Shown piece by piece: positions 15,765 to 29,049 of a DNA stretch of 30,094 nt. Made by a program: the position numbers and the translations under genes. The stretch's first letter is position 1. Each line of letters starts with the position of its first letter. Under the pieces are notes generated by a model. The model was not told where the DNA came from. It did no database searches and saw only the letters and a list, made by a program, of their open reading frames with translations. The DNA is from a virus: positions 1-30,094 of IMG/VR virus record IMGVR_UViG_3300000553_000222; one strand, 5' to 3'.

Positions 15765-16469
15765 TTATTGCTTAATTAGATTACGAAACTCGGGACTATA
15801 CATTAGTTCTAAGTTTTTTAATCTACGATTATAAGTTAAATTCCATAATTGATCTAAATCTTGTGACATTAGATCATCTAATGTCTGAATAATCATTGTA
15901 ATTTTTTTACGCACATCAGGTTCTTGATCATATGAATGATCTATAATATCGTTGAATGTATCTATCCCAACGCTATTAAGATAATTAATAATTCCCACTG
16001 GGCCAAGTATGACAAATAGTTGCCCAGAAAACATTGGCTTCCACGCTTTTTCACTGATAAATTCCATATCAGTAGTACTTTCAACAACATAATCTATATA
16101 GCATTGGCTATGCACTAAGCTGGCATTGCTAGTGTAATACCAATTGTCTACTTCGGGCTCACCAGGAATATCTATATATCTCGGCGAGTTTGCTTTTACT
16201 ATCTCAAATTCTTCTGTGGGCATCTGTTGTTGTAAATCTCTCCAACTACAGGTTATTAATTGTTCAAATCTTTTGGGGATAGTATCGAAGCTAATTTTAC
16301 AACGATTAACCCACGGTTGTTTGAGTAACTCTATAAAATTAATAGCACGAGGCAATCGTGGAGTACGAGTTAAGCATGATAATGCATACGGACGTAATTG
16401 TACAATGTCCGGTTTGGTTAATGTTTGATTACTAATTAATTCAAAAAAATATTCAGAATTGAACGTCAT
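15765..16469 (-). CDS. Glycosyltransferase-like protein, short paralogue
   Basis: 234-residue minus-strand protein sharing a C-terminal signature with the genes at 20381 and 26239: (I/L)(S/T)EK..KP near residue 139, then a hydrophobic strand, L..(L/V)G..TF near 165-172 and (D/E)xSYD near 178-181. An upstream LS.LTR..R...INFIELLKQ segment (residues 30-50) matches a second shared block. It corresponds to the last two-thirds of the longer paralogues, so it may be the minimal domain. The SEK/TEK motif recalls the nucleotide-sugar site of fucosyltransferase-type GT-B enzymes, an inference. AAGGG precedes the start. Its stop lies one base from the convergent rpsU stop, with no terminator. Confidence 0.65.
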   Translation of the reverse strand: MTFNSEYFFELISNQTLTKPDIVQLRPYALSCLTRTPRLPRAINFIELLKQPWVNRCKISFDTIPKRFEQLITCSWRDLQQQMPTEEFEIVKANSPRYIDIPGEPEVDNWYYTSNASLVHSQCYIDYVVESTTDMEFISEKAWKPMFSGQLFVILGPVGIINYLNSVGIDTFNDIIDHSYDQEPDVRKKITMIIQTLDDLMSQDLDQLWNLTYNRRLKNLELMYSPEFRNLIKQ

Positions 16470-16474
16470 ATGTA

Positions 16475-16503
16475 TTGCCCTTCATTTTAACATTATGTAT
16501 AAT
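16475..16503 (+). promoter_or_regulatory. Sigma70-like promoter (TTGCCC-17-TATAAT) for hsp20
   Basis: -35 at 16475-16480, -10 at 16498-16503, 17-bp spacer. The -35 lies a few bases from the start of the divergent minus-strand gene. A late box follows at 16510. Confidence 0.65.
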
Positions 16504-16509
16504 ATTGTG

Positions 16510-16517
16510 TATAAATA
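16510..16517 (+). promoter_or_regulatory. T4-like late box TATAAATA for hsp20
   Basis: Exact TATAAATA followed by C. A start six to seven bases downstream would make the 5' end of the mRNA coincide with the base of the leader hairpin at 16523. Confidence 0.78.
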
Positions 16518-16522
16518 CTTAT

Positions 16523-16578
16523 GTAGATGCCGAATAGTCGGGTCTACAATTTATAGTCATCTTGCTTAAAAAGGAGAA
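16523..16578 (+). ncRNA. Structured 5' leader of hsp20, copy 1
   Basis: Leader hairpin: outer stem GTAGA (16523-16527) with TCTAC (16543-16547), inner stem CCGA (16530-16533) with TCGG (16538-16541), loop ATAG, and an asymmetric TG/G internal loop. ACAAT follows, then a variable stretch, and then GCTTAAAAAGGAG containing the ribosome-binding site just before the ATG. The same arrangement with compensatory changes occurs at 27715-27766. No known riboswitch class was recognised. Confidence 0.7.
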
Positions 16579-16583
16579 AACAA

Positions 16584-17039
16584 ATGACACAATTACAAAT
16601 CCATACTCTTGATTTACCTACGTTCGTTAACCAGATTCATCGCCAAACAATCGGCTTTGATCAAATTTTTGAACAGCTAAACAAACAATTCTCAAGTCGT
16701 CAAGACAATTACCCCCCACATAATGTAGTTAAACTAGATGACACTCATTACGTCATTGAAGTTGCTGTTGCGGGGTTTGCTGAAGACGAAATCGATGTTG
16801 AGCTAAAAGAAAACGTGTTAACTGTCAAAGGCGAACAAGTTAAGCCTACACCAGAAGTAGCACCAGAATACCTGCACAAAGGTATTAGCAATCGTGACTT
16901 TACTCGTACTTTCCCATTAGCGGAAAATATCGAAGTATGTGGCGCTACTGTTCAAAATGGTATACTTAGTATTGCTTTAGAAATGTTAGTTCCGGAAGAA
17001 CAAAAGGCTAAAAAAATTGCCATAACATTTGCAAAATAA
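16584..17039 (+). CDS. hsp20: Small heat-shock protein Hsp20
   Basis: 151-residue alpha-crystallin-type chaperone. After an N-terminal region with FDQIFEQLNKQF, the alpha-crystallin domain spans about residues 45-140: YPPHNVVKLDDTHYVIEVAVAGF, EDEIDVELKENVLTVKGE, then ISNRDFTRTFPLAENI and the characteristic NGILSIALE (in place of the usual G-V-L), and a C-terminal EEQKAKKIAI carrying an I-x-I-like tail. Known: Hsp20 genes are widespread in T4-like cyanophages and related marine phages and are thought to hold proteins folded during virion assembly. It has tandem sigma70-like and late promoters and a structured leader, and is followed by clpS, another proteostasis gene. Confidence 0.93.
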   Translation: MTQLQIHTLDLPTFVNQIHRQTIGFDQIFEQLNKQFSSRQDNYPPHNVVKLDDTHYVIEVAVAGFAEDEIDVELKENVLTVKGEQVKPTPEVAPEYLHKGISNRDFTRTFPLAENIEVCGATVQNGILSIALEMLVPEEQKAKKIAITFAK

Positions 17040-17057
17040 GTAACAATGTTGTATAAT
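17029..17057 (+). promoter_or_regulatory. Sigma70-like promoter (TTGCAA-17-TATAAT) before clpS
   Basis: -35 at 17029-17034 inside the end of hsp20, -10 at 17052-17057, 17-bp spacer. Predicted start near 17064, within the following inverted repeat. Confidence 0.65.
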
Positions 17058-17087
17058 AAAGGGGTAGGAATTAACTTACCCCTTTAT
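17056..17087 (+). terminator. Perfect 11-bp inverted repeat between hsp20 and clpS
   Basis: ATAAAGGGGTA (17056-17066) and TACCCCTTTAT (17077-17087) around a 10-base loop. The stem GGGGTA/TACCCC followed by TTTAT could act as a weak terminator for hsp20, but the downstream sequence is A-rich, so a leader hairpin or mRNA-stability element is equally possible. Confidence 0.5.
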
Positions 17088-17105
17088 ACTGAAAAAAAAA
17101 TAATT

Positions 17106-17435
17106 ATGAGCGATTCAATGGCAAAAACCAAAACCGAAGCAACAGTACGTCCACAAATTGAAATCAAATCCAATATCCCGGAACCGCCACAATATCGTGT
17201 TATCTATATCAACGATGAACAAACTACACAAGAGTTTGTAGTTGAAACACTTAAAGCAATCTTTCATTATGACGAAGGCGCTGCTGAATCAATTACAATG
17301 AAAGTACACGAAGAAGGTAGTGCAGTTGTAGCAGTATTCCCTTACGAAATTGCCGAACAAAAAGGTATCGAAGTTACCTTGCTTGCTCGTAATAACGGCT
17401 TCCCACTACAAGTTAAAGTAGAACAAGACTCATGA
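17106..17435 (+). CDS. clpS: ClpS, adaptor for the Clp protease (N-degron recognition)
   Basis: 109-residue ClpS homologue. I chose the ATG at 17106 (MSDSMAKTK); the frame extends to 17046, but that part overlaps the promoter and hairpin. A flexible N-terminal tail of about 25 residues is followed by the ClpS core: PPQYRVIYINDEQTT, EFVVETLKAIFH, ESITMKVHEEGSAVVAVFPYEIAEQK and NGFPLQVKVEQ. The N-degron pocket residues are kept: N36, D37 and H68 align with E. coli N34, D35 and H66. ClpS delivers proteins with N-terminal Leu, Phe, Tyr or Trp to ClpAP. A phage copy could redirect host proteolysis or protect phage proteins. It is paired with hsp20. Recognition is confident; the biological purpose is inference. 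Confidence 0.93.
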   Translation: MSDSMAKTKTEATVRPQIEIKSNIPEPPQYRVIYINDEQTTQEFVVETLKAIFHYDEGAAESITMKVHEEGSAVVAVFPYEIAEQKGIEVTLLARNNGFPLQVKVEQDS

Positions 17436-17460
17436 TTAATAGGTTAAACTGACAAAAGGT

Positions 17461-17468
17461 GGTAAATA
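17461..17468 (+). promoter_or_regulatory. Possible late box GGTAAATA before the GIY-YIG gene
   Basis: TAAATA core 18 bases before the ATG at 17487, with AAGGAG between. It is a weaker match than the xATAAATA sites. Late control of homing endonucleases is known in T4. Confidence 0.4.
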
Positions 17469-17486
17469 AACATAAGGAGAATACTT

Positions 17487-18188
17487 ATGTATATCGGCTA
17501 CATTTATAAAACAATTAACTTAATTAACAATCGTTGCTATATCGGCAAAAGAACAAAACCTATTTTTGATAATAATTATTATGGGTCTGGGATAGCATTA
17601 CAATCTGCTATTAAAAAATACGGCAAAGAAAACTTCAAAGTAGAAATATTACATTGGGCTAAAACAGTCAATGAGTTAAACCAACTTGAGATAGATACTA
17701 TTTCTTTATACGAATCACTAAGTGATTTATATAATATTGCAGGTGGTGGCACAGGCGGAAATACTATATTAAATCATCCCGATAAAGACAACATAATTAA
17801 TCAACGTAATATTGGATTAACAAACTGGCATGCCTCATTAACCGAAGAAGAAAAAGCAATTCGTTCAAAAAAAATAAGTAATGCCAAAAAAGGAAAATCC
17901 AACGGACATACTGGGCACAAACACACCCCTGAAACAATAGAAAAAATAAAAGCATCAAATAAAAATTATACAAAATCTGCAGAATGGAAAAAAGCTCATG
18001 CAGAAGCATCCGCAAAACGGAAAGGGAAACCCTTTACACAAAAATATAAACCTGTTATAATAAACAACATAGAATATCCATCAATTAAAGATGCTATGGT
18101 TGGATTAGGAATAAAACATAGGGCAACATTTTACACAATGGTAAAACAACAAAAAATATCAATAGTATACAAAAATGATCTTCAATAA
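17487..18188 (+). CDS. GIY-YIG homing endonuclease (Seg-like)
   Basis: 233-residue free-standing homing endonuclease. The GIY-YIG nuclease domain occupies residues 1-95: GYIYKTINLINNRCYIGK gives the GIY..YIG pair, then YYGSG, the conserved arginine/lysine helix region and the ELNQLEIDTI...YN.AGGG segment with the catalytic Glu. Residues about 120-190 contain NUMOD3-like basic repeats (TPETIEKIKAS..., SAEWKKAHAEA...). Residues 195-225 (YPSIKDAMVGLGI.....F) resemble a helix-turn-helix NUMOD1-type module. It sits between clpS and the nucleotidyltransferase gene and overlaps the latter's start by 14 bases. AAGGAGA precedes the ATG. Known relatives are T4 Seg proteins and I-TevI-type nucleases. 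The target is probably at this junction in endonuclease-free relatives. Confidence 0.92.
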   Translation: MYIGYIYKTINLINNRCYIGKRTKPIFDNNYYGSGIALQSAIKKYGKENFKVEILHWAKTVNELNQLEIDTISLYESLSDLYNIAGGGTGGNTILNHPDKDNIINQRNIGLTNWHASLTEEEKAIRSKKISNAKKGKSNGHTGHKHTPETIEKIKASNKNYTKSAEWKKAHAEASAKRKGKPFTQKYKPVIINNIEYPSIKDAMVGLGIKHRATFYTMVKQQKISIVYKNDLQ

Positions 18189-18654
18189 AATAAGAGAATT
18201 AAAAGAACAAGGCAAAAGAATCGGAATTACATTTAGTACATTTGATTTAGGACCACACGCTGGCCATATTTCTATGTTGTCTGAAGCAAAGAATCATTGC
18301 GATTATTTAATTGCCGGTTTACAGACTGATCCCACTATTGATCGTGCAGATACCAAAAACAAACCAGTTCAAAGCATTGTAGAACGACAAATTCAATTAG
18401 CTGCCTGTCGTTATGTGGACGAAGTTGTTGTTTATGAAACAGAACAAGACTTAATTGATTTATTACTAATCCTCCCAATCGATGTTCGCGTTTTGGGTGT
18501 TGAATACGAACTTACAGAATTCTCAGGAAAAATGGAATGTATGCGTCGCGGAATAGAACTTGTATATAATGGTCGTGATCATTCATTCTCCAGCTCAGGA
18601 CTACGCAGACGTGTAGTGGAATCCGAATCCCTTAAAATCTTAAAGCAAGGATAA
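18175..18654 (+). CDS. Cytidylyltransferase-type nucleotidyltransferase (TagD/RfaE-like)
   Basis: 159-residue protein with the class I nucleotidyltransferase fold: GITFSTFDLGPHAGHISML with the HxGH motif at H28-H31, DYLIAGLQTD, the ERQIQLAACRYVDEVV segment and a C-terminal FSSSGLRRRV that matches the second nucleotide-binding motif (usually RTxGISxT). Closest known activities are glycerol-3-phosphate or sugar-phosphate cytidylyltransferases. Substrate cannot be deduced, but the nearby UDP-sugar dehydrogenase, amidinotransferase and glycosyltransferase-like genes suggest polysaccharide or headgroup activation. The ATG at 18175 lies inside the end of the GIY-YIG gene. Confidence 0.82.
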   Translation: MIFNKIRELKEQGKRIGITFSTFDLGPHAGHISMLSEAKNHCDYLIAGLQTDPTIDRADTKNKPVQSIVERQIQLAACRYVDEVVVYETEQDLIDLLLILPIDVRVLGVEYELTEFSGKMECMRRGIELVYNGRDHSFSSSGLRRRVVESESLKILKQG

Positions 18655-18657
18655 ATT

Positions 18658-19209
18658 GTGGATATAATGCTCGACTTAGAATCTTTAGGCACACGTCCAG
18701 ATTGTGCAATCTTAACATTGGGTGCAGTTAAGTTTGATCCATTTACCCCGGACAAGTTTGGCGATAGCCTATACTTCAGAATTGATGTTGACGAACAGTT
18801 AGCATTAGGACGTGAAGTGCAAGCCGACACACTAGAATGGTGGGGCAGGCAAGCCGAAGATGTCCGTGAAGAAGCATTAGGTACAGAAGGCCGAATTAGT
18901 CTAGAATCAATGTACAAGCAGTTAAATAAATTTACTGTAGGTGTAGAGAACATTTGGTGTCAAGGTCCTGCATTTGATATTGTTATTCTAGAAAACATCT
19001 ATCGTCAATGTGGTTGGCCAACGCCGTGGCAGTTTTGGCAAATCCGTGATAGTCGTACACTATTTGGTGTACACGGTGACCCACGTGAAAAAGGCAAAGC
19101 TGGATTGCACAATGCACTGGAAGATTGTATTAGCCAAGCACAAGGTGTACAAGAAATTTATCGAGCATTAAAATTAGAAAAGAGAACGTATGCAAATCGT
19201 ATGGGATAA
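18658..19209 (+). CDS. DEDDh 3'-5' exonuclease
   Basis: 183-residue exonuclease of the DnaQ-like superfamily. The acidic residues are visible: D6 and E8 in LDLESLG, D107 in GPAFDIVILE, and H151 with D156 in LHNALEDC, giving the DEDDh pattern. Length and the 'LGTRPDCAILTLGAVKF' opening resemble T4 DexA-like phage exonucleases. The start is GTG at 18658, placed 7 bases after an AAGG; the ATG at 18667 is too far from it. Probable role in DNA degradation, repair or recombination. It ends about 20 bases inside the next gene. Confidence 0.88.
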   Translation: MDIMLDLESLGTRPDCAILTLGAVKFDPFTPDKFGDSLYFRIDVDEQLALGREVQADTLEWWGRQAEDVREEALGTEGRISLESMYKQLNKFTVGVENIWCQGPAFDIVILENIYRQCGWPTPWQFWQIRDSRTLFGVHGDPREKGKAGLHNALEDCISQAQGVQEIYRALKLEKRTYANRMG

Positions 19210-19501
19210 AAATGTAGTCGACGATCTTAAAAAGAAACATACTGTATTGGAATTAGAAACATTTCCTGTTAACGGTGAAATGTTTAGTTGCTGGTGTGTG
19301 GTACCAGCCGACAAGATTGGTGTTGATGGATTAATGAAACTTGATGTATACATAGAACTACACGAAGGTTTTCTCAAAGCGTACAAAGAAAAAAATTATA
19401 CCCTTGTGCAGGACATTGCTGAACACTTAATGGGACAATTTGGCGGCGAACTAGACTCATTCTACGAAGAAATACTTGGCAGAATTAATAAAACAGAGTA
19501 A
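19190..19501 (+). CDS. Hypothetical protein (103 aa)
   Basis: Protein of unknown function starting 20 bases inside the exonuclease gene, with AAAGAGAAC before the ATG. It appears alpha/beta: strands MQIVWDK and LELETFPV..MFSCWCVVP, followed by two amphipathic helices (VYIELHEGFLKAYKEK and IAEHLMGQFGGELDSFYEEIL). Coupling to the exonuclease suggests a shared process. No motif identified. Confidence 0.72.
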   Translation: MQIVWDKNVVDDLKKKHTVLELETFPVNGEMFSCWCVVPADKIGVDGLMKLDVYIELHEGFLKAYKEKNYTLVQDIAEHLMGQFGGELDSFYEEILGRINKTE

Positions 19502-19513
19502 TAACGTTATAGA

Positions 19514-19744
19514 TTATTGATGGTCTTTAAGATCATGGATAGCTTCTGCTACATCATCTAATTCATCGCCGATTGTTTTAACACATTCATCTAATAAATC
19601 AACCGAATTGGATATTTCTTTAAAAGAATGAGCAGATATTCTAGTAACTACAACCCCAAAAATCGCTAGTATAAACAAATCACTGAGAAGCACTACCAAC
19701 ATTGGTAAAGAAATATCTTCGAGTACTTTGAAGATTTCGTCCAT
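19514..19744 (-). CDS. Small membrane-anchored protein with acidic helical tail (76 aa)
   Basis: Minus-strand gene with an ideal ribosome-binding site (AAGGAGCTAGT) and a late box upstream on the same strand. After a short N-terminus there is one transmembrane helix at about residues 14-34 (LPMLVVLLSDLFILAIFGVVV), then an acidic coiled-coil-like tail (ISNSVDLLDECVKTIGDELDDVAEAIHDL). The layout resembles phage inner-membrane regulators (spanin, antiholin or immunity-type), without a recognised family. Its leader is nearly duplicated in front of the 32-residue gene at 20230. Confidence 0.72.
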   Translation of the reverse strand: MDEIFKVLEDISLPMLVVLLSDLFILAIFGVVVTRISAHSFKEISNSVDLLDECVKTIGDELDDVAEAIHDLKDHQ

Positions 19745-19760
19745 ACTAGCTCCTTAATCG

Positions 19761-19774
19761 ACAGCTTATGCTGC
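19761..19774 (-). promoter_or_regulatory. Leader hairpin, minus-strand family copy A
   Basis: On the minus strand, GCAGC-ATAA-GCTGT forms a 5-bp stem (one G:T pair) between the late box (19789-19796) and AAGGAGCTAGT. Same element as copy B at 20351-20364. Confidence 0.6.
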
Positions 19775-19788
19775 TCTTCTTATACTAG

Positions 19789-19796
19789 TATTTATT
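19789..19796 (-). promoter_or_regulatory. Late box AATAAATA (minus strand)
   Basis: Minus-strand AATAAATA followed by CTAG, about 45 bases upstream of the ATG at 19744. Confidence 0.6.
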
Positions 19797-19841
19797 TCGC
19801 TAGACATCTTTTGGCGTTTATCATTTGTTTCAAAAAAAAAA

Positions 19842-19849
19842 AATAAATA
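19842..19849 (+). promoter_or_regulatory. Late box AATAAATA (plus strand) after an A-tract
   Basis: AATAAATA directly after a run of A residues and only four bases before an ATG at 19854. It is divergent from the minus-strand box at 19789. Confidence 0.5.
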
Positions 19850-19853
19850 CATA

Positions 19854-20006
19854 ATGTTAGTATTCTTTCAGCAATTATTATTATCAGCAGGATTATTCCT
19901 CTTTCTACTTATTTTTGTCCGAGTGGGGCTTGGCTTTTTGATATTAATGGCTTGGTTAGTGGGGTTAACCTTGGCAATCTGTACACTGACAGGCTTAGGT
20001 TCGTAA
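19854..20006 (+). CDS. Very hydrophobic small membrane protein (50 aa)
   Basis: Open frame MLVFFQQLLLSAGLFLFLL...LTLAICTLTGLGS. Nearly the whole length is hydrophobic and a single arginine (RVGLG) separates two potential transmembrane segments, giving a helical hairpin. It has no ribosome-binding site, and the late box lies only 4 bases before the ATG, so the exact start is uncertain (a downstream start cannot be excluded). Size and topology fit a small holin-like or pinholin-like protein, but that is a guess. Confidence 0.45.
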   Translation: MLVFFQQLLLSAGLFLFLLIFVRVGLGFLILMAWLVGLTLAICTLTGLGS

Positions 20007-20033
20007 GAGAATTATCCAAGATGGGGAAGTATT

Positions 20034-20225
20034 ATGATGAAATGGTTAAACGATTATAGAAAGGCTACTATGTCGCAACCTCTAACTAATGTTGCAAATG
20101 CTTATTATGATCAATGCAGTTGGGTAATGATGCAGATGTATTTCATGCCTTATAGAATTCCAAGCATAATAGGTGACACAAACGCATTTAGTAAAACTTT
20201 ACAAAATATTTGTAAACCTACTTAG
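20034..20225 (+). CDS. Small protein (63 aa), unknown
   Basis: Frame MMKWLNDYRKATMSQPL... preceded by GGGGAAG at a suitable distance. It is aromatic and Met-rich in the middle (YDQCSWVMMQMYFMPYRIP) and may associate with membranes peripherally. It lies among other tiny membrane proteins. No family recognised. Confidence 0.5.
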   Translation: MMKWLNDYRKATMSQPLTNVANAYYDQCSWVMMQMYFMPYRIPSIIGDTNAFSKTLQNICKPT

Positions 20226-20229
20226 CCTA

Positions 20230-20328
20230 TTATAATGCCCATCCTATAAGAATACCGACTAGTAATGCTACAAGCATAAATCCTGCAACGTGCTTATCTG
20301 TCCATAATGCTTGTGTATAATTACTCAT
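20230..20328 (-). CDS. 32-residue single-pass membrane protein
   Basis: Minus-strand mini-gene: MSNYTQALWTDKH followed by one transmembrane helix (VAGFMLVALLVGILIGWAL) reaching the C-terminus. It has an AAGGAGCTAGT ribosome-binding site, a hairpin and a late box identical in layout to those of the 76-residue gene at 19514, which strongly supports that it is expressed. Function unknown; a tail-anchored regulator of membrane or lysis is possible. Confidence 0.62.
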   Translation of the reverse strand: MSNYTQALWTDKHVAGFMLVALLVGILIGWAL

Positions 20329-20350
20329 ATAACTAGCTCCTTGAAAAATG

Positions 20351-20364
20351 ACAGCTCATGCTGT
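20351..20364 (-). promoter_or_regulatory. Leader hairpin, minus-strand family copy B
   Basis: Minus-strand ACAGC-ATGA-GCTGT, 5-bp stem, between a late box and AAGGAGCTAGT. It differs from copy A at stem-edge and loop positions while keeping the stem. Confidence 0.6.
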
Positions 20365-20377
20365 TCTGTTGTACAAG

Positions 20378-20385
20378 TATTTATT
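20378..20385 (-). promoter_or_regulatory. Late box AATAAATA (minus strand) overlapping a stop codon
   Basis: Minus-strand AATAAATA overlaps the TAA stop of the glycosyltransferase-like gene at 20381 and precedes the 32-residue gene. Confidence 0.6.
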
Positions 20386-21604
20386 GCTTGAGCCGAGCTT
20401 TTACTTCTAACAAATATTCCGGAGTTAATTCAAAACGTTGATGATGTCTACTATGATTTCCGGGCTGTCGTCCATTATTAATTTGACATAGGACATGTTC
20501 AAAGTTATCGATTAATTCATCAATAATAAGATCTTTAAATGTTGTATAAAAATGATTAAAGTTATACTCTAATACTTCTTGCATTTCTTGGTGCATTTTC
20601 TCTAATGTAATTTGATCCATTGCACATAGTCTAGCAATTTCTGCGGTAATCTTTTCTATTCGTGTATAATGATCTTCTTCTTCATCGTAACTTTCGTCTA
20701 TCCACCGATTAAATGTTTTAAATCCATAGCTCTTTAAATATTTTAAGTTACCCGGTGCCGCTACTAAAAAGAAAGGACGTTTTGCTACAATAGGTTTAAA
20801 CACTTTTTCGGTTAAGTGTAACTTAGGATCAAAGTATACTGTTTCAGTAACAACATGAAATAATGCTCTGGTCAAGTCGGCAAAATTAACATTGGCACTC
20901 ATACTTCCATTTGGAGTTTCTGTGTCAATGATCAATGGTTTATTTACTTTAGATAATACTCTATAAATTTTTGTCCTTGCTCTGTTATCCAATGGATTTT
21001 GCGGGTCCATTATAGTACTACGCCAATCACCAAATTCATCATTTAATGTTAAACTGACTAGTCCGTGCTTAACTAAATCTTCATCTATTAGGTTACTAAC
21101 AAGGTGTAGGCGATATGAACGTAAATTACTAGTCAGGTGATTATAACATATAAATACTTTATCAAAATGATTAAATGAAGTTGGATTCAAATACCGAAAA
21201 TCTCTATACCAATCTAATGCTGCAAACCCGTGAAAGAAATAATACCAATTATACGAAGTTTCTGATTTTATAAAATTGTCTTTAATGTCAGATTTTTCAC
21301 TATTGGCTATTATATCAATCCAATTGGGATTAGTATTAGCATAATCATACCGTATAATTGAATTTTTTAAAATTGGTAGATTATAATTGTCAAAGGGTTC
21401 CTGGTCAAAAAAGTAGCAATGTAAAAATATTTTGCCAACGTCGGGGGTTTGTTCAATTTCTATTATATCGTTAGTTTTTTTATCTTGCAAAATATCGATT
21501 CCCTGGTATGTACCAAACGGGTAGAAGTACACCGTTTTATTATTAGGAAATCGATATATTAAATTATCATGAAGTATATTATAAAATCTGTCTAAGGAAA
21601 ACAT
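20381..21604 (-). CDS. Glycosyltransferase-like protein, longest paralogue
   Basis: 407-residue minus-strand protein. The C-terminal domain carries the shared signature at residues 264-307: LTEKVFKP, PFFLVAAPG, LK.YGFKTF and IDESYD. A second shared block at about 148-190 (FDKVFICYNHLTSNLRSYR...GLVSLTLND) and a VVTETVYFD segment just before the TEK motif also match the paralogue at 26239. The N-terminal 140 residues are unrelated to the other two copies. The TEK motif resembles the donor-sugar site of GT10-like GT-B enzymes (inference). The start codon is separated from the divergent dehydrogenase start by only two bases, and no ribosome-binding site is evident on this strand. Confidence 0.75.
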   Translation of the reverse strand: MFSLDRFYNILHDNLIYRFPNNKTVYFYPFGTYQGIDILQDKKTNDIIEIEQTPDVGKIFLHCYFFDQEPFDNYNLPILKNSIIRYDYANTNPNWIDIIANSEKSDIKDNFIKSETSYNWYYFFHGFAALDWYRDFRYLNPTSFNHFDKVFICYNHLTSNLRSYRLHLVSNLIDEDLVKHGLVSLTLNDEFGDWRSTIMDPQNPLDNRARTKIYRVLSKVNKPLIIDTETPNGSMSANVNFADLTRALFHVVTETVYFDPKLHLTEKVFKPIVAKRPFFLVAAPGNLKYLKSYGFKTFNRWIDESYDEEEDHYTRIEKITAEIARLCAMDQITLEKMHQEMQEVLEYNFNHFYTTFKDLIIDELIDNFEHVLCQINNGRQPGNHSRHHQRFELTPEYLLEVKARLKQ

Positions 21605-21606
21605 AA

Positions 21607-22830
21607 ATGAATGTAGGATTTATTGGAGTTGGTAAATTGGGAATGGCTTGTGCCGAAACTATGGCAACTAAGCATAACGTAACTGGTTATGATATTTATC
21701 CAGTAACTAGCGACAAAATAACTATTGCATCCACTTTGCAAGAAGCAGTTGAGGGCAAAGAGCTAATCTTTATTGCTGTTCAAACACCACATGATCCTAT
21801 CTACGGTGGCGATCGCCCAATCACACACTTAAAGAATAAAGACTTTGATTACACCGTAGTAAATGATGTACTTCGTCAAGTAAACGAATTTGCAAAACCT
21901 GAACAATTAGTAGTTCTTATCTCCACAGTTCTACCAGGCACTACCCGTAGGGAACTGAAGAATAATATTACCAACGCACGTTTCATATACAACCCTTACC
22001 TCATCGCAATGGGTAGTGTTGAGTGGGACATGGTTAACCCAGAGATGGTTATCATTGGTACTGAAGACGGTAGCGAAACAGGCGATGCAAAATTGCTAAC
22101 TGACTTTTATAACACAATCATGGAAAACAATCCGAGGTACGTAGTAGGTACGTGGGATGAAGCAGAATGTATTAAAGTATTTTACAACACCTTTATTAGT
22201 GCTAAGATTGGTATTGTAAATATGATTCAAGACGTAGCTATTAAACAAGGTAACATTGATGTAGACGTAGTAACTAATGCACTAGCAAACTCTACTATGC
22301 GTATCATGGGACCTAAATATATGACAGCAGGTATGGGAGATGCAGGGCCGTGTCATCCACGTGATAATATTGCCTTGCGTTACCTTGCTGAAGAATTAGA
22401 TTTGGGGTATGACTTATTCGATGTTATAATGAAAGCACGTGAGCAACAAGCAAAGAACATGGCACGTTTCATTTATGATAATAGAGAAGGTTTACCAGTA
22501 TTCATACACGGTAAAGCATATAAACCTAACGTAACCTATTTAGAAGGTAGTTACAGTTTGTTAGTAGGATACTACTTGCAAGAGATGGGTATTACCCCTA
22601 CATATATCGATCCGTTAACTGAACCAACAGTTCCTGACAGTATTATGGGAGTTATACTGTTGGCACACAATCAACAGATAACATACGGATATTCCGGTGT
22701 TACTGATAATCAAAATTTATATTGTCGCATTGATCCGGGCAGTATTATTATTGATCCATGGCGCAAGTATCCACAAACAGGAAATATTAAAGTTATCCAT
22801 TATGGCAACACACGTAATAACCAAATATAA
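21607..22830 (+). CDS. UDP-glucose/GDP-mannose dehydrogenase family protein
   Basis: 407-residue NAD-dependent nucleotide-sugar 6-dehydrogenase, which oxidises a UDP- or GDP-hexose to the uronic acid. The N-terminal Rossmann motif GFIGVGKLGMACAE, IFIAVQTP near residue 54, STVLPGTT near 106, the central AECIKVFYNTFISAKI helix and the catalytic cysteine C249 in GDAGPCHPRDN are present. The C-terminal nucleotide-binding domain follows (residues about 300-400). Length is near the usual 400-450. The ribosome-binding site (AAGGA) lies inside the 5' end of the divergent gene. It begins a four-gene block with overlapping or abutting genes. The sugar substrate is unknown; a role in modifying cell-surface or virion glycans is inferred. 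Confidence 0.87.
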   Translation: MNVGFIGVGKLGMACAETMATKHNVTGYDIYPVTSDKITIASTLQEAVEGKELIFIAVQTPHDPIYGGDRPITHLKNKDFDYTVVNDVLRQVNEFAKPEQLVVLISTVLPGTTRRELKNNITNARFIYNPYLIAMGSVEWDMVNPEMVIIGTEDGSETGDAKLLTDFYNTIMENNPRYVVGTWDEAECIKVFYNTFISAKIGIVNMIQDVAIKQGNIDVDVVTNALANSTMRIMGPKYMTAGMGDAGPCHPRDNIALRYLAEELDLGYDLFDVIMKAREQQAKNMARFIYDNREGLPVFIHGKAYKPNVTYLEGSYSLLVGYYLQEMGITPTYIDPLTEPTVPDSIMGVILLAHNQQITYGYSGVTDNQNLYCRIDPGSIIIDPWRKYPQTGNIKVIHYGNTRNNQI

Positions 22831-23320
22831 ACTAGACAAGTTCTGGGATGATGAGTTTAAGACATTAAACTATATCTCAGAACCGTTTAACGATCCTGTA
22901 AGTGTTAACCAATGGCTATCACAAGGTTACCAAGGCAAGATCTGTGGCGAACTATGCGATATGCGACACACATTACCAAGTTGGAGTAATAAATTTATTG
23001 AATTGTACACCGCCGAGGGATGGAAAGATATCGGCATTGCTTTTTATCGTATGCGTACTGGTACAGTAATGCCTAATCATAGCGATTTATATAAGCGTTA
23101 CATAGAACTATTCAACTTACAGGGTAAAGAACAAACTATTAATCGTGCTTTAGTATTACTAGAAGATTGGAAGTCCGGGCATTACCTAGAAGCTCTAGGT
23201 TCACCGGTAGTAGGGTGGGTCGCTGGGCAAGTTGTGGAATGGAATTATGATGCTCCACACATGGCCGCAAACTTAGGATTAGAAGATAGATACACACTTC
23301 AAATAACAGGGCATAAATGA
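22802..23320 (+). CDS. Fe(II)/2-oxoglutarate oxygenase-like protein
   Basis: 172-residue protein; the ATG at 22802 (MATHVITKYKLDKFW) is chosen because the earlier in-frame ATGs lie deep in the dehydrogenase gene. Cupin-type strands are visible: IAFYRMRTGTVMPNHSD, with HxD as potential iron ligands, a long INRALVLLEDWKSGHYLEA stretch, VVGWVAGQVVEWNYDAPHMAANLG, with H as the distal ligand, and RYTLQITGHK, with an Arg that could bind 2-oxoglutarate. This fits small phage 2OG-oxygenases of the prolyl/aspartyl-hydroxylase type, which are frequent in aquatic T4-like phages. Its target may be a sugar, a protein or a nucleotide. It overlaps both neighbours by a few bases. Confidence 0.72.
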   Translation: MATHVITKYKLDKFWDDEFKTLNYISEPFNDPVSVNQWLSQGYQGKICGELCDMRHTLPSWSNKFIELYTAEGWKDIGIAFYRMRTGTVMPNHSDLYKRYIELFNLQGKEQTINRALVLLEDWKSGHYLEALGSPVVGWVAGQVVEWNYDAPHMAANLGLEDRYTLQITGHK

Positions 23321-24228
23321 TTAGTTCATTCAATGAGTGGGATCCACTTAAATCAGTTGTAGTAGGTAGTGCAAAATACGCAAACTGGCCAACAGATGAC
23401 CCAGTATTTGCACAAGAGTCTGAAAAAACTTTATGGAAAGATACACCAGTCCCATCAGGGCCAGTGCCACAGTTCATAATCGATGAAGCCGACGAAGATC
23501 TAAATATACTTGCATATACCCTGGCACAATTAGGAGTAGAAGTTATCAGACCTGCTCCGCGTAACTATCCATTGACTGGTGGTATGTATAATTATTGCCC
23601 CAGGGATAGGTTATTAGTATATGGTAATACTATTATCGATCCTGCTATGATGTATCCCTGTAGAGATCAAGAGATTATTGTTCTAGACGAAGTAATTAAT
23701 AAATCGCACGATCGTCGAAGTATGCCACGTGATCAAGGCATGATACTCGATGCGGCTAATGTATGTCGCTTAGGGGATAGTATGTTATTCTTGGAAAGCG
23801 CAAGCGGCAATCGCAGAGCATATGAATGGTTATGCAGTCAATTCCCTACAGTAAATATTGAGCTATGTAACTTCTATGCTGGAGTACATATTGATAGCAC
23901 TATTGTTCCTTTACGCGAGGGACTTGTTATGTTAAATGCTACTCGTGTAACAGAAGCAACCGTGCCTAACGTGTTTAAATTATGGGAAAAGATTTGGGTT
24001 AATGAAGTAGTGGCACAAGATTTCTATGAATACCCTTATGCAAGTAAATGGATTGCTATGAATATGTTAGTAGTTGATCCTAACACAGTTATAGTGGATC
24101 GACATCAAGTAGGGTTAATTAGCACGTTAGAACGTCATAAATTCACAGTTATACCACTAGAATTGCGTCATAGTCGCACTTTAGGCGGCGGGTTTCATTG
24201 TGTTACGCTTGATTTATTACGTATGTAA
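23317..24228 (+). CDS. Glycine/inosamine amidinotransferase family protein
   Basis: 303-residue member of the amidinotransferase superfamily, which moves the amidino group of arginine to an amine acceptor through a covalent Cys intermediate. Markers: N-terminal SFNEWDPLKSVVVGSA, ILDAANVCRLGD near 143, H191 in GVHIDST and nucleophile C295 in GGGFHCVTLDLL. Overall it is shorter than animal glycine amidinotransferase (about 420) but close to bacterial and phage forms. Known: homologues annotated as inosamine-phosphate amidinotransferase occur in aquatic phages. Placement between an Fe/2OG-type enzyme and a Rossmann protein, beside a sugar dehydrogenase, suggests a guanidino-modified sugar or small molecule. 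The preceding gene overlaps by ATGA. Confidence 0.88.
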   Translation: MISSFNEWDPLKSVVVGSAKYANWPTDDPVFAQESEKTLWKDTPVPSGPVPQFIIDEADEDLNILAYTLAQLGVEVIRPAPRNYPLTGGMYNYCPRDRLLVYGNTIIDPAMMYPCRDQEIIVLDEVINKSHDRRSMPRDQGMILDAANVCRLGDSMLFLESASGNRRAYEWLCSQFPTVNIELCNFYAGVHIDSTIVPLREGLVMLNATRVTEATVPNVFKLWEKIWVNEVVAQDFYEYPYASKWIAMNMLVVDPNTVIVDRHQVGLISTLERHKFTVIPLELRHSRTLGGGFHCVTLDLLRM

Positions 24229-24234
24229 TAAATA
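24227..24234 (+). promoter_or_regulatory. Late box AATAAATA next to ATG
   Basis: Overlaps the amidinotransferase stop and lies five bases before the ATG at 24240, so the predicted transcript begins at the start codon. There is no ribosome-binding site. Confidence 0.6.
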
Positions 24235-24239
24235 GTTGT

Positions 24240-24974
24240 ATGACTTTTGTAAATTACACCGATGCGGTTCTAGCCGCCTTACAGTTTAATCCTAGAATGG
24301 ACGATGTGGTTGCACGTAAACAAGAAATTCTTGATGGTGTTTATCGCACAGAGAATCTTGATCCTATTAGTATTTTGTTTGTTGGATTTAATCCGGCAAT
24401 TTTAAGTTGCAAAGCCAAGACAATTGGCGTGACTGAAATCAGTGATCGAGCGCAAGCATTCCTTACTTCTCGTGGTGTAAAGTTTACCTATATTGAACCG
24501 CAAGATTTAACACAATATAGAAAACAATTCCAGTGCGTAGTAGCAATGGATGAGTACTTTACCTTTGCAGAGTCGGATTCCGAGCAACAACTTAAAATTA
24601 CTAAGATTTGTAATTTAGCCACATCTTTTGTAATAAGTACAATACGTGACTATAAGAATCAAGATTTTAAAGATCGTGAATTTAGTATTCCTGTGTTAGT
24701 TAGACATGGTGCAGAAAGCAAAGTATTCACAGAGTTCCATGACTGGGATTTAAGTGATCGTACACGCTGGGCAACAATGTTATATGAAATTGATAATCCA
24801 TCTAACAATCTAACAACATACGGTAAATTTGAACGTCGTACTATGTTCTTTAAACAATTAGCAAAGTTTAGTATCGATGCTGGTGCAGTAAATTTTCTTG
24901 TACATAAAAATTTAATGTATAAGAGTCTAATCAAGAAAAACTACGAACACGTAGTTAGTATACAATTCGAGTAA
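24240..24974 (+). CDS. Rossmann-like protein, possible methyltransferase
   Basis: 244-residue protein. After a helical N-terminus, ISILFVGFNPAILSC (residues about 43-57), GVKFTYIEPQDL and FQCVVAMDEYFTF resemble the first strands of a class I SAM-dependent methyltransferase (glycine-rich loop, acidic end of strand 2, strand 4), followed by ICNLATSFVISTIRDYKNQ. The glycine loop is degenerate (VGFNP instead of GxGxG). The C-terminal part, with GKFERRTMFFKQLAKFS, is basic and helical. It belongs to the sugar-modification block by position. The methyltransferase assignment is tentative. Confidence 0.6.
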   Translation: MTFVNYTDAVLAALQFNPRMDDVVARKQEILDGVYRTENLDPISILFVGFNPAILSCKAKTIGVTEISDRAQAFLTSRGVKFTYIEPQDLTQYRKQFQCVVAMDEYFTFAESDSEQQLKITKICNLATSFVISTIRDYKNQDFKDREFSIPVLVRHGAESKVFTEFHDWDLSDRTRWATMLYEIDNPSNNLTTYGKFERRTMFFKQLAKFSIDAGAVNFLVHKNLMYKSLIKKNYEHVVSIQFE

Positions 24975-24976
24975 AT

Positions 24977-26242
24977 ATGGACATCACAGATAACGTAAAC
25001 AGCATAGTACAGGGCATTGTTACACAAATAACAGCTCAGGTTCAACAACAGGCCATGGTTGCTATTCAGCAAAAAATTACAGAAGTAATTAATGCAATTG
25101 ATAGCACTACTCTTTTAACAACATTACTAAGCCAAAAATTAGATACTAAAATATCAGAATTAGAATTTAGCAAAGACATAATTGAAACAGAATTAAAAGA
25201 AAAACTTAATTCAATGGCATCAACTCTATCAGAGTCGGTGCAACTACGAGCACAAGAACTCACTTCGCAGGCTATCAATGCTCAAGTTACTCAAATTGAT
25301 TTTAAACAGTTGTGTCAAGGTACATTGTTATCGGCATTGCAACAACAAGTATTAAAATTTCCAGTAGCAAGTATTCCCGGAAGTGCAATTGATCCTGCTA
25401 ATTGGTTAATCTCTGGTAACAATATTAGTGGCGGCATTATTCAGAACTTTGGTAGTATCGGTATTGAAGACAAGGCTACTGCATGCCAGTTAAGTATTTT
25501 TGATGATGTTACTGTTGTCGAAAATAATCTATTAACTAAGAATTTGACTGTTAAAGGCACAACTACAATCGAAGGCGATCTTAACGTAACTGGTACATTA
25601 TCTGAATCTAGTCCATTATTCCAGAATATTGTTAAAGCCGCGGGTGATAGTGTAACAGCAAGCCTTAACCAAGGTATATTCCAAGGTTACGCAGACTTGG
25701 TAACTGCCCAACTACAATCAACTGGTATCGATTTAACTAAAATTACTATACAAGGACAAGATATTATCAATGGCAATGCAATTGGTAATTCTATTACTCA
25801 AAGTAATTTACAAAAAGTTGGACAATTAAACGAACTACAAGTTCAAGGTGAGACATTTTTAAGTGGTACACTATATACCACAAGTACTCGTGTTGGTGTT
25901 AATACTGTTGAACCTGCACAAGCATTAAGTATTTGGGATCAAGAAATTGAAATAGGATTTGGTAAGCAAACTGCCGGTGTTGCAGTTATTGAAACCCCAC
26001 GTAGCCAAACTCTTGTATTAAGTAGTAACGGACAGAATAACTTAGCACTAACACCAGACGGTGCCGCAACTGTTAATAAGATTAACATGGGTAGTATGAG
26101 TTTTGCTGTGGGGATAATGCCGCCAAGCGACGTTCAACCTAAAGGTAGCATTGTGTTTAATGCTAATCCTAGTATTGGCGGTCCACTCGGTTGGGTAAGT
26201 CTAGGTGATGCTCGTTGGGCTAACTTTGGTATTATCGATTAA
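24977..26242 (+). CDS. Tail-fibre-type structural protein
   Basis: 421-residue protein. Residues 1-120 form a long amphipathic coiled coil (VQGIVTQITAQVQQQAMVAI..., LDTKISELEFSKDIIETEL...). Then come a beta-rich middle with the shaft motif LTVKGTTTIEGDLNVTGTL near residue 195, a second helical-repeat region (residues about 210-285), and a C-terminal domain ending in a WVSLGDARWANFGIID tail. The TGTL-type motif and the trimeric coiled coil are typical of phage fibres or baseplate-attached needles. It is the third such gene here. Its stop overlaps the convergent glycosyltransferase-like gene by 4 bases. Confidence 0.78.
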   Translation: MDITDNVNSIVQGIVTQITAQVQQQAMVAIQQKITEVINAIDSTTLLTTLLSQKLDTKISELEFSKDIIETELKEKLNSMASTLSESVQLRAQELTSQAINAQVTQIDFKQLCQGTLLSALQQQVLKFPVASIPGSAIDPANWLISGNNISGGIIQNFGSIGIEDKATACQLSIFDDVTVVENNLLTKNLTVKGTTTIEGDLNVTGTLSESSPLFQNIVKAAGDSVTASLNQGIFQGYADLVTAQLQSTGIDLTKITIQGQDIINGNAIGNSITQSNLQKVGQLNELQVQGETFLSGTLYTTSTRVGVNTVEPAQALSIWDQEIEIGFGKQTAGVAVIETPRSQTLVLSSNGQNNLALTPDGAATVNKINMGSMSFAVGIMPPSDVQPKGSIVFNANPSIGGPLGWVSLGDARWANFGIID

Positions 26243-27348
26243 ACAACACGATTATACTTCGAAAAGAAGAAATCGCCAAAGTCCTGTTTAAACAAGTTAT
26301 ACCAATCGTTGCTATACATCAAATTGAAATTATAATCAACAATCTCTCGGCAACGTTCAATAACATTAGCTTGATCTTGTTCACATAATAATTTAAGTTG
26401 TTGCATTGCTGCGGTATGTCGTTCTGTAGAGTCTTCGATACTATCATAACTTTCATCAATGATACCATCAAATGTTTTAAATCCTAATCTTTGTAGTGCC
26501 GCTAAATGATATTGATTACCTAAGGTAATAAACAACCTGCGAGCAAGTATAGGTTTAACAGTTTTTTCTGTTAAGAATACAAACTGGTTATCAAAATTAG
26601 TTTCACATACCAGACTATATGCTGTCTTATTATAAATGTCTATAGGAATAATTTGACTCAGACTCATATTATAGCCGTAGTAGTCAACTCTATCTACTGT
26701 AAAGTCGATTGTTTGACTTCTTACTTCAAAGTCATCAATGCCTTCGCTTTGCCAAACCCATTTTTCGGAATCCGCAGAGTCAAAATTTACTTTATAATCA
26801 TCGATATATGTAACTACACCTTTATCTAACATATTATTTTCTGTTAAAAACTTATATGCTAAATCTCTGTGTGGTTTTTTACGTCCAAGTAATGCATCAA
26901 ACTGTAAAGGTTTAGGATCAAATGGTTTCAGCTTATATAAAATACTAGGTTGAACATTTCGATAGAAATGTACACTGGTTGTAAACCAGTCTAAGAATTT
27001 ATGTACTTCTGCATTAATCATGCGCCAGTGCAAATATCCACAAATAAAGAACTTTATTTTCTTTAAATCAAATCGCTTAATAAACTCAACAGTCTTAGCA
27101 TGTAATTCGCTGCCAATAATTAAAATATGATCAACTTGATCGTAGATGTTGTTTATTTCATCTTCAATACTTGAATCATATGGGTATGGTATTTGAAAAC
27201 ATGCGATACGTTTACCTCTTGCAGAGTTTTTAAATAATTCTGCATCATGATAATAAGACCAATCGTCGAAAGTTCTTCCGGCTAATTGATTAATATGGTA
27301 CCGGAAGACGTTAACACTCTCTTCCGGTATATAGATACTAACTTCCAT
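26239..27348 (-). CDS. Glycosyltransferase-like protein, middle paralogue
   Basis: 369-residue minus-strand protein with the shared C-terminal signature at residues 259-302: LTEKTVKPILARR, a hydrophobic strand ending LGN, LQRLGFKTF and IDESYD. The common block FDALLGRKKPHRDLAYKFL...GVVTYIDD lies at about 150-184, and SLVCETNFD precedes the TEK motif. The N-terminal half (about 1-145) has a Rossmann-like look (KRIACFQIPYPYD, VDHILIIGSELHA, KIKFFICGYLHW) and differs from the 407-residue copy. The ATG overlaps the stop of the histone-like gene (TAATG), so the two are translated together. A strong inverted repeat lies shortly after the start codon (27299-27329). Confidence 0.75.
   Translation of the reverse strand: MEVSIYIPEESVNVFRYHINQLAGRTFDDWSYYHDAELFKNSARGKRIACFQIPYPYDSSIEDEINNIYDQVDHILIIGSELHAKTVEFIKRFDLKKIKFFICGYLHWRMINAEVHKFLDWFTTSVHFYRNVQPSILYKLKPFDPKPLQFDALLGRKKPHRDLAYKFLTENNMLDKGVVTYIDDYKVNFDSADSEKWVWQSEGIDDFEVRSQTIDFTVDRVDYYGYNMSLSQIIPIDIYNKTAYSLVCETNFDNQFVFLTEKTVKPILARRLFITLGNQYHLAALQRLGFKTFDGIIDESYDSIEDSTERHTAAMQQLKLLCEQDQANVIERCREIVDYNFNLMYSNDWYNLFKQDFGDFFFSKYNRVV
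27299..27329. repeat. Perfect 10-bp inverted repeat inside the glycosyltransferase-like gene
   Basis: TACCGGAAGA and TCTTCCGGTA around an 11-base spacer. In the minus-strand mRNA the hairpin would lie about 20-50 bases after the start codon. It could modulate translation or be a protein-binding palindrome; it may also be fortuitous. Confidence 0.65.
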
Positions 27349-27581
27349 TATTTCTTAGCAGGAGCCTTTTTTGCTGTAGTCTTTTTTACTGTTTTTTTAG
27401 ATGTTGCTTTAGCAACAGGTTTAGCTGTACGTGTAGTAGCTTTCTTAACAGTTGGTTTCTTTTTAGATACCACCGGGAAGTCTACATGCTCGCTAACAAT
27501 TTCAGGAACTACTGGTGCGACGATTGGTGATTCAATTCTAACTGGTGTTCCAAGAAAGAATTCTTTGATTGCTTTAAACAT
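27348..27581 (-). CDS. Lys/Ala-rich histone-H1-like tail protein (77 aa)
   Basis: Minus-strand protein with a short hydrophobic N-terminus (MFKAIKEFFLGTPV), a Pro/Val-rich linker with Glu and His, and a strongly basic C-terminal half (about 39-77) of the type KKKPTVKKATTRTAKP..., composed mainly of Lys, Ala, Thr, Pro and Val. Such tails occur in histone-H1-like bacterial and phage DNA-binding proteins. TAGGAG precedes the ATG, with the ribosome-binding site in the loop of a 6-bp inverted repeat (ACTATC/GATAGT, 27582-27601). Cotranscribed with the glycosyltransferase-like gene. DNA binding is inferred from composition. Confidence 0.72.
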   Translation of the reverse strand: MFKAIKEFFLGTPVRIESPIVAPVVPEIVSEHVDFPVVSKKKPTVKKATTRTAKPVAKATSKKTVKKTTAKKAPAKK

Positions 27582-27603
27582 ACTATCTCCTAATTGATAG
27601 TAT

Positions 27604-27611
27604 TATTTAGT
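27604..27611 (-). promoter_or_regulatory. Late-type box ACTAAATA (minus strand)
   Basis: Minus-strand ACTAAATA upstream of the histone-like gene and its leader hairpin. It probably drives the two-gene minus-strand operon. Confidence 0.55.
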
Positions 27612-27669
27612 GGGTGTTTAATACCGGAAACTTTTTTGTCCAAAAGCAGTAATATTATGTTATTAAATG

Positions 27670-27698
27670 TTGCAACCGCACATAAATAAATGTATACT
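27670..27698 (+). promoter_or_regulatory. Sigma70-like promoter (TTGCAA-17-TATACT) overlapping a late box
   Basis: -35 at 27670-27675, -10 at 27693-27698, 17-bp spacer that contains the late box at 27681-27688. The -10 also forms half of a 7-bp inverted repeat TATACTA/TAGTATA (27693-27712). Confidence 0.6.
27681..27688 (+). promoter_or_regulatory. T4-like late box CATAAATA
   Basis: xATAAATA match about 83 bases before the ATG at 27772, located within the spacer of the sigma70-like promoter, giving nested dual control. Confidence 0.65.
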
Positions 27699-27714
27699 AA
27701 GAACATAGTATAAA

Positions 27715-27766
27715 GTAAGATGCTGAATAGTTCGGGTCTTACAATAACATTTCGCTTAAAAGGAAA
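27715..27766 (+). ncRNA. Structured 5' leader of the phasin-like gene, copy 2
   Basis: Outer stem GTAAGA (27715-27720) with TCTTAC (27737-27742), inner stem CTGA (27723-27726) with TCGG (27732-27735), loop ATAGT, and the same TG/G internal loop as copy 1. It is followed by ACAAT, a variable stretch and GCTTAAAAGGA before the ATG. Relative to copy 1, the outer stem gains one base pair on both sides and the inner stem has C:G changed to U:G. Confidence 0.7.
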
Positions 27767-27771
27767 ATAAA

Positions 27772-28014
27772 ATGTTTAATTTCAAATCGGTATTAGATCA
27801 AGCAGCAACAGCAAGCAAGCAATCATTTGCATTTGTCCAAGATAAAGTAGTACGCGGCTCACTAGAAACTCTAGTAGATGCACAAGTAGAATTCACAAAA
27901 ACTTTTTACGATACCACTTTAGATTTATCTAAGCAGTTCGTTGAAGGATCTAAGCAATTTGACCTTACTAAGTCTTTTGCACAAGTAGCTGAAAAGTTCA
28001 ATTTCACTAAGTAA
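27772..28014 (+). CDS. Small helical protein, phasin-like
   Basis: 80-residue amphipathic, probably all-helical protein: FNFKSVLDQAATASKQSFAF, then LETLVDAQVEFTKTFYDTTLDLSKQFVEGSKQF. The spacing and composition recall phasins, the proteins coating polyhydroxyalkanoate granules, which are common in PHA-storing proteobacteria. The protein is shorter than typical phasins (about 110-190), so the assignment is tentative. It has dual promoters, a structured leader shared with hsp20, a good ribosome-binding site and its own terminator, which indicates a highly expressed monocistronic gene. Confidence 0.6.
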   Translation: MFNFKSVLDQAATASKQSFAFVQDKVVRGSLETLVDAQVEFTKTFYDTTLDLSKQFVEGSKQFDLTKSFAQVAEKFNFTK

Positions 28015-28041: not shown

Positions 28042-28064
28042 AGCCCTAGCAATAGGGCTTTTTT
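28042..28064 (+). terminator. Rho-independent terminator with GCAA loop
   Basis: AGCCCTA / TAGGGCT perfect 7-bp stem with a GNRA-type loop, followed by a run of T. It ends the phasin-like transcript. Confidence 0.92.
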
Positions 28065-28080
28065 ACGACTCAAATTTTGG

Positions 28081-28821: not shown

Positions 28822-29049
28822 ATGCAATTAAACCGACGTAAAATAAAAAATATAGAAGTTGATGGAGTTGATTCAGATGACTATCCAGACTTCTGCGATG
28901 CTTTCTTTAGCTATGCTGAATACGAAGATGGTACACCATTGAACGATGACGAGTTAGAAACACTTGGCGAAGAATTCAGTGATCTCATTAACCAATTGGC
29001 ACACGATGCAGTAACTGATGGTGCCGACGACTACGATATAGAGAGATAA
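28822..29049 (+). CDS. Small acidic phage protein with DYPDFCDAF motif
   Basis: 75-residue protein opening with basic NRRKIKNIEVDGVD, then DYPDFCDAFFSYAEYEDGTPLNDDELE. The IEVDG.D..DYPDF.DAF...A...DG..L.D.ELE pattern is a widespread conserved family in T4-like and other phages with no assigned function. Here the C-terminus (LGEEFSDLINQLAHDAV...) differs from the form I recall. The stop overlaps the next ATG (TAATG). Confidence 0.72.
   Translation: MQLNRRKIKNIEVDGVDSDDYPDFCDAFFSYAEYEDGTPLNDDELETLGEEFSDLINQLAHDAVTDGADDYDIER

Follow-up and report, generated by a model that had tools for sequence, protein, structure and literature searches.

ROSE-like RNA thermometers are defined by a hairpin formed between U(U/C)GCU and the Shine-Dalgarno (SD) sequence around a bulged G (PMC3669281). 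In the classical elements, B. japonicum hspA ROSE1 and those of E. coli ibpA/ibpB, this pairing lies in the 3′ hairpin of three to four; the ROSE-like thermometer of Pseudomonas ibpA is short, with two hairpins of which II melts and I stays folded (PMC3669281). For phages, the list of described RNA thermometers is still very short: lambda cIII, SPbeta blyA and a sigma70-gene candidate in a gut phage (PMC11182007). Here we analyse a 30,094-base IMG/VR virus record with T4-like genes (IMGVR_UViG_3300000553_000222, the whole of which we call the window), where hsp20, encoding a small heat-shock protein (sHsp), and an unlinked phasin-like gene are preceded by similar structured leaders. These leaders probably act as a ROSE-type RNA thermometer for chaperone genes of phages. 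The earlier phage examples (lambda cIII, the SPbeta blyA FourU element, the sigma70 gene) differ from them in genes and motif types, and have not been described as a ROSE-type family with conservation over many phages. The open-access literature yielded no paper that names a thermometer of cyanophage hsp20.

When Rfam was searched at low stringency, ROSE_3 (RF02523) was the best match for both the hsp20 leader (16521-16589, 25.8 bits, E 7.3e-4) and the phasin-like leader (27714-27777, 21.2 bits, E 0.0099), and a related phage leader, L004, reached 33.7 bits (E 6.8e-6). All three matches span model positions 1-69 and contain the ROSE_3 consensus hairpin I, GAUGCCGAA...CGGGUC, followed by an SD hairpin. 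At the gathering threshold Rfam gave no match anywhere. The remaining low-stringency matches, to freshwater-2 (E 0.12), DUF2815, Yfr13 and mir-251, were set aside as weak or chance. As a positive control, the P. aeruginosa ibpA leader found by BLAST (L168) scored 68.7 bits (E 1.5e-14). Its length of 61 nt, its CCGC at 23-26 and its bulge G39 agree with the lengths and mutation numbering of the published thermometer (PMC3669281). Its hairpin I, GAUGCCG...CGGGU, is the same as in the phage leaders. Both window leaders also have U(U/C)GCU imperfectly paired with the SD sequence around a bulged G, and that of hsp20 lies, like the Pseudomonas element, directly upstream of an sHsp gene with at least one hairpin ahead of the SD hairpin, the phasin-like gene being an additional target. 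The initial annotation had not recognised the leader as a known riboswitch; we find that it is laid out like a ROSE thermometer and bears the U(U/C)GCU signature, with ROSE_3 as the nearest Rfam family. The phage element has both hairpins in common with an experimentally proven thermometer, yet by the curated score it is not a ROSE_3 member.

The phage leaders nevertheless differ from ROSE_3 in being AT-rich, in having a variable linker that is often complementary to the start codon, in following a phage late or sigma70-like promoter rather than a sigma32 promoter, and in serving groES and the phasin-like gene as well. Classical ROSE elements share with them the pairing of U(U/C)GCU against the SD sequence in the 3′ hairpin, but have three to four hairpins where the phage leaders have two. 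The bacterial side of this comparison was covered by P. aeruginosa and E. coli only, in passing: a model of the phage leader found no close match in E. coli, its only hit being at ibpB (E 0.03). A scan of genome contigs with hsp20 for cellular sources yielded archaeal matches only (n=2), and RF02523 had no match in six archaeal relatives or in control genomes.

Hairpin 1 of the hsp20 leader consists of an outer stem TGTAGA/TCTACA (16522-16527/16543-16548), an invariant UG (16528-16529) facing G 16542, an inner stem CCGA/UCGG and the loop AUAG. In the phasin-like leader the corresponding parts are GTAAGA/TCTTAC (27715-27720/27737-27742), UG (27721-27722) facing G 27736, CUGAA/UUCGG and UAG. The 13-mer GATGCYGAATAGT has exact matches within the 30 kb in these two leaders only. 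This shared hairpin had been described in the initial annotation, and its positions, pairs, TG/G asymmetry and C:G to U:G change are all real. A pattern of 19-20 nt built from both leaders matched in 47 IMG/VR contigs, ahead of hsp20-like or phasin-like genes. We then gathered 80 hsp20 loci, fetched by protein, and isolated phages. The first 11 isolates were HTVC008M, Melnitz, Syn2, S-RSM4, P-TIM40, S-RIM2, Syn1, Atu_ph07, P-TIM68, Paride and RB11-B; nine further cyanophages brought the isolates to 20, a spread sample from 507 records. The two-hairpin layout is present in all 20 isolates and in all readable hsp20 loci, and the hairpin-1 core U/C-G-C...GG is invariant in 90 of 90 distinct leaders from IMG/VR and isolates alike.

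Around this core the stems vary in a compensatory manner. In the 90 leaders, anchored on the invariant core, the outer stem is paired in 424 of 450 cells, against 251 +/- 13 (maximum 298) with the arms reassigned among leaders. For 85 distinct hairpins, aligned as hairpin 1 alone, 90.6% of cells are paired (64.1 when shuffled) and double-sided changes occur at nine of ten pairs. The covariation score is 0.702 compared with 0.221 when shuffled, none of 500 shuffles reaching it. Related leader sequences are not independent, and kinship inflates the shuffle counts; slid versions of the alignment retain that kinship and yet score far lower, at 0.05-0.16. RNAalifold, applied to whole leaders aligned with MAFFT, recovered six pairs only, because the linker shifts the outer stem out of register. 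The initial annotation had argued from two copies that the RNA shape is selected, and had named a lack of further homologues with covarying stems as what would count against this; dozens of homologues with double-sided stem changes bear the argument out. The strictly conserved core UGCC...GGG might also suggest that the leader is a riboswitch for a metabolite or is bound as an operator by some other phage protein, for instance RegA, and several cyanophages have hsp20 directly 3′ of regA. We rejected both as very improbable: no Rfam riboswitch matches, the targets include no enzyme or transporter genes, the inner loop is free in sequence and length (AUAG, UAG, UUCG, GGGU), unlike a ligand pocket, and the same core is found without RegA in the ibpA leader of P. 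aeruginosa.

Downstream of hairpin 1, the initial annotation had noted a GCTTAAAA(A)GGA box holding the ribosome-binding site (RBS). The box is present, but it had been overlooked that the box itself forms a second hairpin, whose arms are UUGCU.../...AGGAG in the hsp20 leader and UCGCU.../...AGGAA in the phasin-like leader. C-G and U-A pairs lie above an unpaired UG or CG facing G, and U-A and C-G pairs below. The U(U/C)GC...GG layout occurs in 72 of 73 distinct leaders, and hairpin 2 has 305 paired cells against 275.9 +/- 3.3 in shuffles (maximum 286), with rare swaps on both sides of the bulge (C-G to G-C below, U-A to A-U above). The linker between the hairpins is, in many leaders, the exact complement of the first five coding bases of the gene, so that pairing can extend over the start codon, by a different complementary sequence in each of the two genes. 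Of 80 hsp20-type leaders whose gene starts with ATGAC, 46 have the exact complement GUCAU (shuffled mean 0.98, maximum 5), and 10 of 15 phasin-type leaders have the exact complement AACAU (shuffled mean 0.23, maximum 3); the complement covaries with gene type. One hsp20 leader (L013, 4804-4889) has an additional GC-rich hairpin, CCGCCCCGCAATAGGGGC, within this linker.

The leader is restricted to a narrow set of genes. A parser run over 450 open reading frame (ORF) starts with an RBS, from the loci gathered before the groES set, identified the two-hairpin layout at 85, all of them hsp20 or phasin-like; none of the unrelated genes checked among these starts had the leader, and neither did any of 1,350 shuffled upstream regions. 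Phasin-like relatives gathered by alignment query carried it at 17 of 17 loci. Searching whole records with the leader model gave one copy in 10 of the first 11 isolated phages, the divergent Paride leader being missed by the model although visible in the sequence, while phasin-bearing freshwater phages mostly have two copies per record. One 317-kb phage has a third, upstream of groES-groEL. Among the phage groES loci fetched, 27 of 64 have the leader, in several freshwater phage lineages, and in several groES contigs an hsp20 with its own leader stands 3′ of groEL. The leader thus tracks proteostasis or chaperone-type genes (hsp20, groES, phasin-like), and the pair of genes in the window is not arbitrary. 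Since the module recurs before all three, it would define a phage-encoded proteostasis regulon.

At 10 groES loci (L207-L213, L229, L193, L215) the leader is directly ahead of the gene. At the other 17 it lies about 100-150 nt upstream, ahead of an ORF of 8-14 codons, and in most of these loci groES has a separate sigma70-like promoter. Where a leader copy precedes such a tiny ORF (L162 779-868 in G008; L179-L185, L189, L190, L194-L199, L202, L204), the predicted peptides include MSKHIYVT, MSKQPFLT, MTKPSQLI, MIKNLSPPDHSIST and MINQHEPSLNH.... The tiny ORF may be a relic, a leader peptide or a coupling device. Three deposited hsp20 starts appear misplaced, in S-SRM01 (L173), S-CAM7 (L174) and S-CAM3 (L175): one falls within hairpin 1 and the others 3′ of the ATG after the leader.

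T4 late-promoter spacing would place transcript starts at hairpin 1. A T4-type late box directly precedes hairpin 1 of hsp20, and from this spacing the late transcript is predicted to start at about 16523, in the first bases of the hairpin; where related leaders have an ATAAATA-type late box, its end most often lies 4-5 nt ahead of the outer stem. The initial annotation had assigned both sigma70-like and late promoters to both genes. This holds in full for hsp20 only: at the phasin-like gene, ATAAATA at 27681-27688 is too distant from the hairpin to mirror the hsp20 arrangement, and the relatives have similar TTGCA...TATA(A/C)T sequences upstream. With a sigma70-like promoter in place of a late one at the phasin-like gene, one RNA module therefore seems to serve differently promoted genes.

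That hairpin 1 begins about where the late transcript should start is also what would be seen if it were a 5′-terminal messenger RNA (mRNA) stabiliser only, followed by an ordinary RBS without switching. Stable 5′ hairpins protect mRNAs, and such a role has been suggested for hairpin I of Pseudomonas (PMC3669281). We regard this as improbable, as the SD hairpin covaries on its own and carries the near-universal U(U/C)GC motif, linker and start codon covary, and restriction to chaperone-type genes is not expected of a plain stabiliser.

In the thermometer reading, transcription would begin at or just upstream of hairpin 1, from a late promoter in the case of hsp20 and from one of host type in that of the phasin-like gene. 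Serving as a spacer and a stable 5′ cap, hairpin 1 would fold first and stay folded, and the imperfect pairing of U(U/C)GCU with the SD sequence, with its bulged G, would close the RBS at low temperature, in many leaders with additional pairing of the linker to the start codon. Translation would be low from the folded RNA and rise as heat loosens hairpin 2. The sequences establish the conserved architecture of two hairpins, its covariation, the set of targets and near-universality in the sample; temperature as the signal, the melting of hairpin 2 and the function of hairpin 1 are what we infer. Regulation of translation, one of the roles that the initial annotation had listed, is the one we judge likely. 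In the predicted folds the RBS is more closed than in controls at 10-30 °C. The predicted cost of opening the SD sequence and AUG at 10 °C is 8.5 kcal/mol for the leaders and 6.8 for other genes of the same loci, and at 45 °C the two are about equal; these folding energies leave the non-canonical ROSE pairs unmodelled.

Several observations weigh against a thermometer. The predicted loosening is gradual and the gap to other genes only modest, while predicted SD closure is weak in the phasin-like leader. The phage leaders, at 21-34 bits, fall under the ROSE_3 gathering cut-off of 43 bits. Many carrier phages come from waters with small temperature swings. Thermosensing does not account for a hairpin-1 core so strictly conserved, and in Pseudomonas hairpin II is sufficient alone (PMC3669281).

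The conserved core and the sharing of the leader among unlinked genes at constant temperature would both be accounted for if the leader served chiefly as an operator bound by the Hsp20 that the phage encodes. In E. coli, IbpA represses its own translation by binding the thermometer in its 5′ untranslated region via Arg93, together with basic residues at 97/98 (PMC10474464); there, too, an sHsp gene has a thermometer leader. The equivalent of Arg93 is present in the window Hsp20; of 87 distinct Hsp20 sequences from phages, 86 have Arg there, and 83 have Arg or Lys at the position equivalent to 97. Arg93 is, however, common in alpha- and gammaproteobacterial IbpAs generally, so its retention may reflect ancestry, and Paride phage has at this position a Lys, which is non-functional in E. 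coli. We hold an IbpA-type operator as the leader's main role to be possible but not favoured; it may act along with thermosensing, to which it is a serious complement. Free Hsp20 might then repress hsp20, groES and the phasin-like gene until late aggregates titrate it away and translation rises, a scheme to which we likewise give less than even weight; if true, aggregation of virion proteins, besides heat, could release the regulon. Joining both, we put forward as a tentative and rather unlikely model that a portable ROSE-type leader in aquatic T4-like phages controls hsp20, groES-groEL and the phasin-like gene post-transcriptionally, sensing temperature and, through the conserved RNA-binding Arg, using the phage's own Hsp20 as an aggregation sensor.

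If the leader is a ROSE element, hsp20, which ranks among the most frequent auxiliary genes in T4-like phages of marine and fresh waters, would almost always be ROSE-controlled, related phages would extend the module to groES and the phasin-like gene, and chaperone supply in infection under warming or protein stress would become directly testable. Phage RNA thermometers described so far are few (count after PMC11182007), and the leader set provides natural ROSE variants from cold water. The leader further offers a means of locating proteostasis genes in phages and of spotting hsp20 start codons misplaced in deposited records.

Table 1. Leader elements, genes and transcription signals in the window.
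Feature	Position	Strand	Basis
T4-type late promoter box TATAAATA, hsp20	16510-16517	+	Sequence; directly ahead of hairpin 1
Sigma70-like promoter match TTGCCC-17-TATAAT, hsp20	16475-16503	+	10/12; consensus match only
Hairpin 1, hsp20 leader	16522-16548	+	Covariation over 85 distinct hairpins; core invariant 90/90
GUCAU linker, hsp20 leader	16556-16560	+	Complements start region AUGAC 16584-16588; present in predicted fold
Hairpin 2, hsp20 leader	16560-16577	+	UUGCU 16562-16566 paired with SD AAGGAG 16571-16576; bulged/mismatched G; ROSE-type
hsp20, sHsp (alpha-crystallin), 151 amino acids	16584-17039	+	Pfam HSP20 1.9e-18; PHROG 432 1.7e-44
Sigma70-like promoter TTGCAA-17-TATACT, phasin-like gene	27670-27698	+	Consensus match only
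Hairpin 1, phasin-like leader	27715-27742	+	Sequence, covariation; leader in 17/17 relatives
AACAU linker, phasin-like leader	27746-27750	+	Complements start region AUGUU 27772-27776
Hairpin 2, phasin-like leader	27750-27766	+	UCGCU 27752-27756 paired with SD AAGGA 27760-27764
Phasin-like gene, 80 amino acids	27772-28014	+	Weak phasin similarity; three helices predicted
Inverted repeat AGCCCTAGCAATAGGGCT, then T run	28042-28066	+	Sequence; scan placed stem on - strand

The phasin identity of the 80-residue protein is weakly supported. It matches NCBIfam TIGR01841 at E 0.0093 (16.4 bits, under the 30.2 cut-off); Phasin_2 (PF09361) matches 3 of 15 relatives (best E 0.0036) and not the window protein itself. 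The structural model is a three-helix fold (predicted local distance difference test score, pLDDT, 77.6), with which a fold search of the PDB returned nothing significant. The inverted repeat after the gene is a likely terminator, and the gene would therefore form a one-gene unit.

Directly 3′ of the window hsp20 lies clpS, for a ClpS adaptor (17106-17435; PF02617, E 4.3e-26), and a ClpS-like gene likewise follows hsp20 in G008. An ORF with GIY-YIG/NUMOD3 similarity 3′ of clpS (17487-18188) is a likely homing endonuclease. Three minus-strand ORFs (15765-16469, 20381-21604, 26239-27348) have a common C-terminal block (e.g. EKVFKPI...FKTF...IDESYD) and no Pfam match, and are possibly a paralogous family. 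By eye, an ORF with repeated K-MS-A motifs between apparent ribonucleotide reductase genes (916-1611) is another likely homing endonuclease, and two similar ORFs (5515-6192 and 29049-29588) carry a cell-wall-hydrolase-like pattern, DLDCLTKNVYYEAG / DVDCLAKNIYYEAG.

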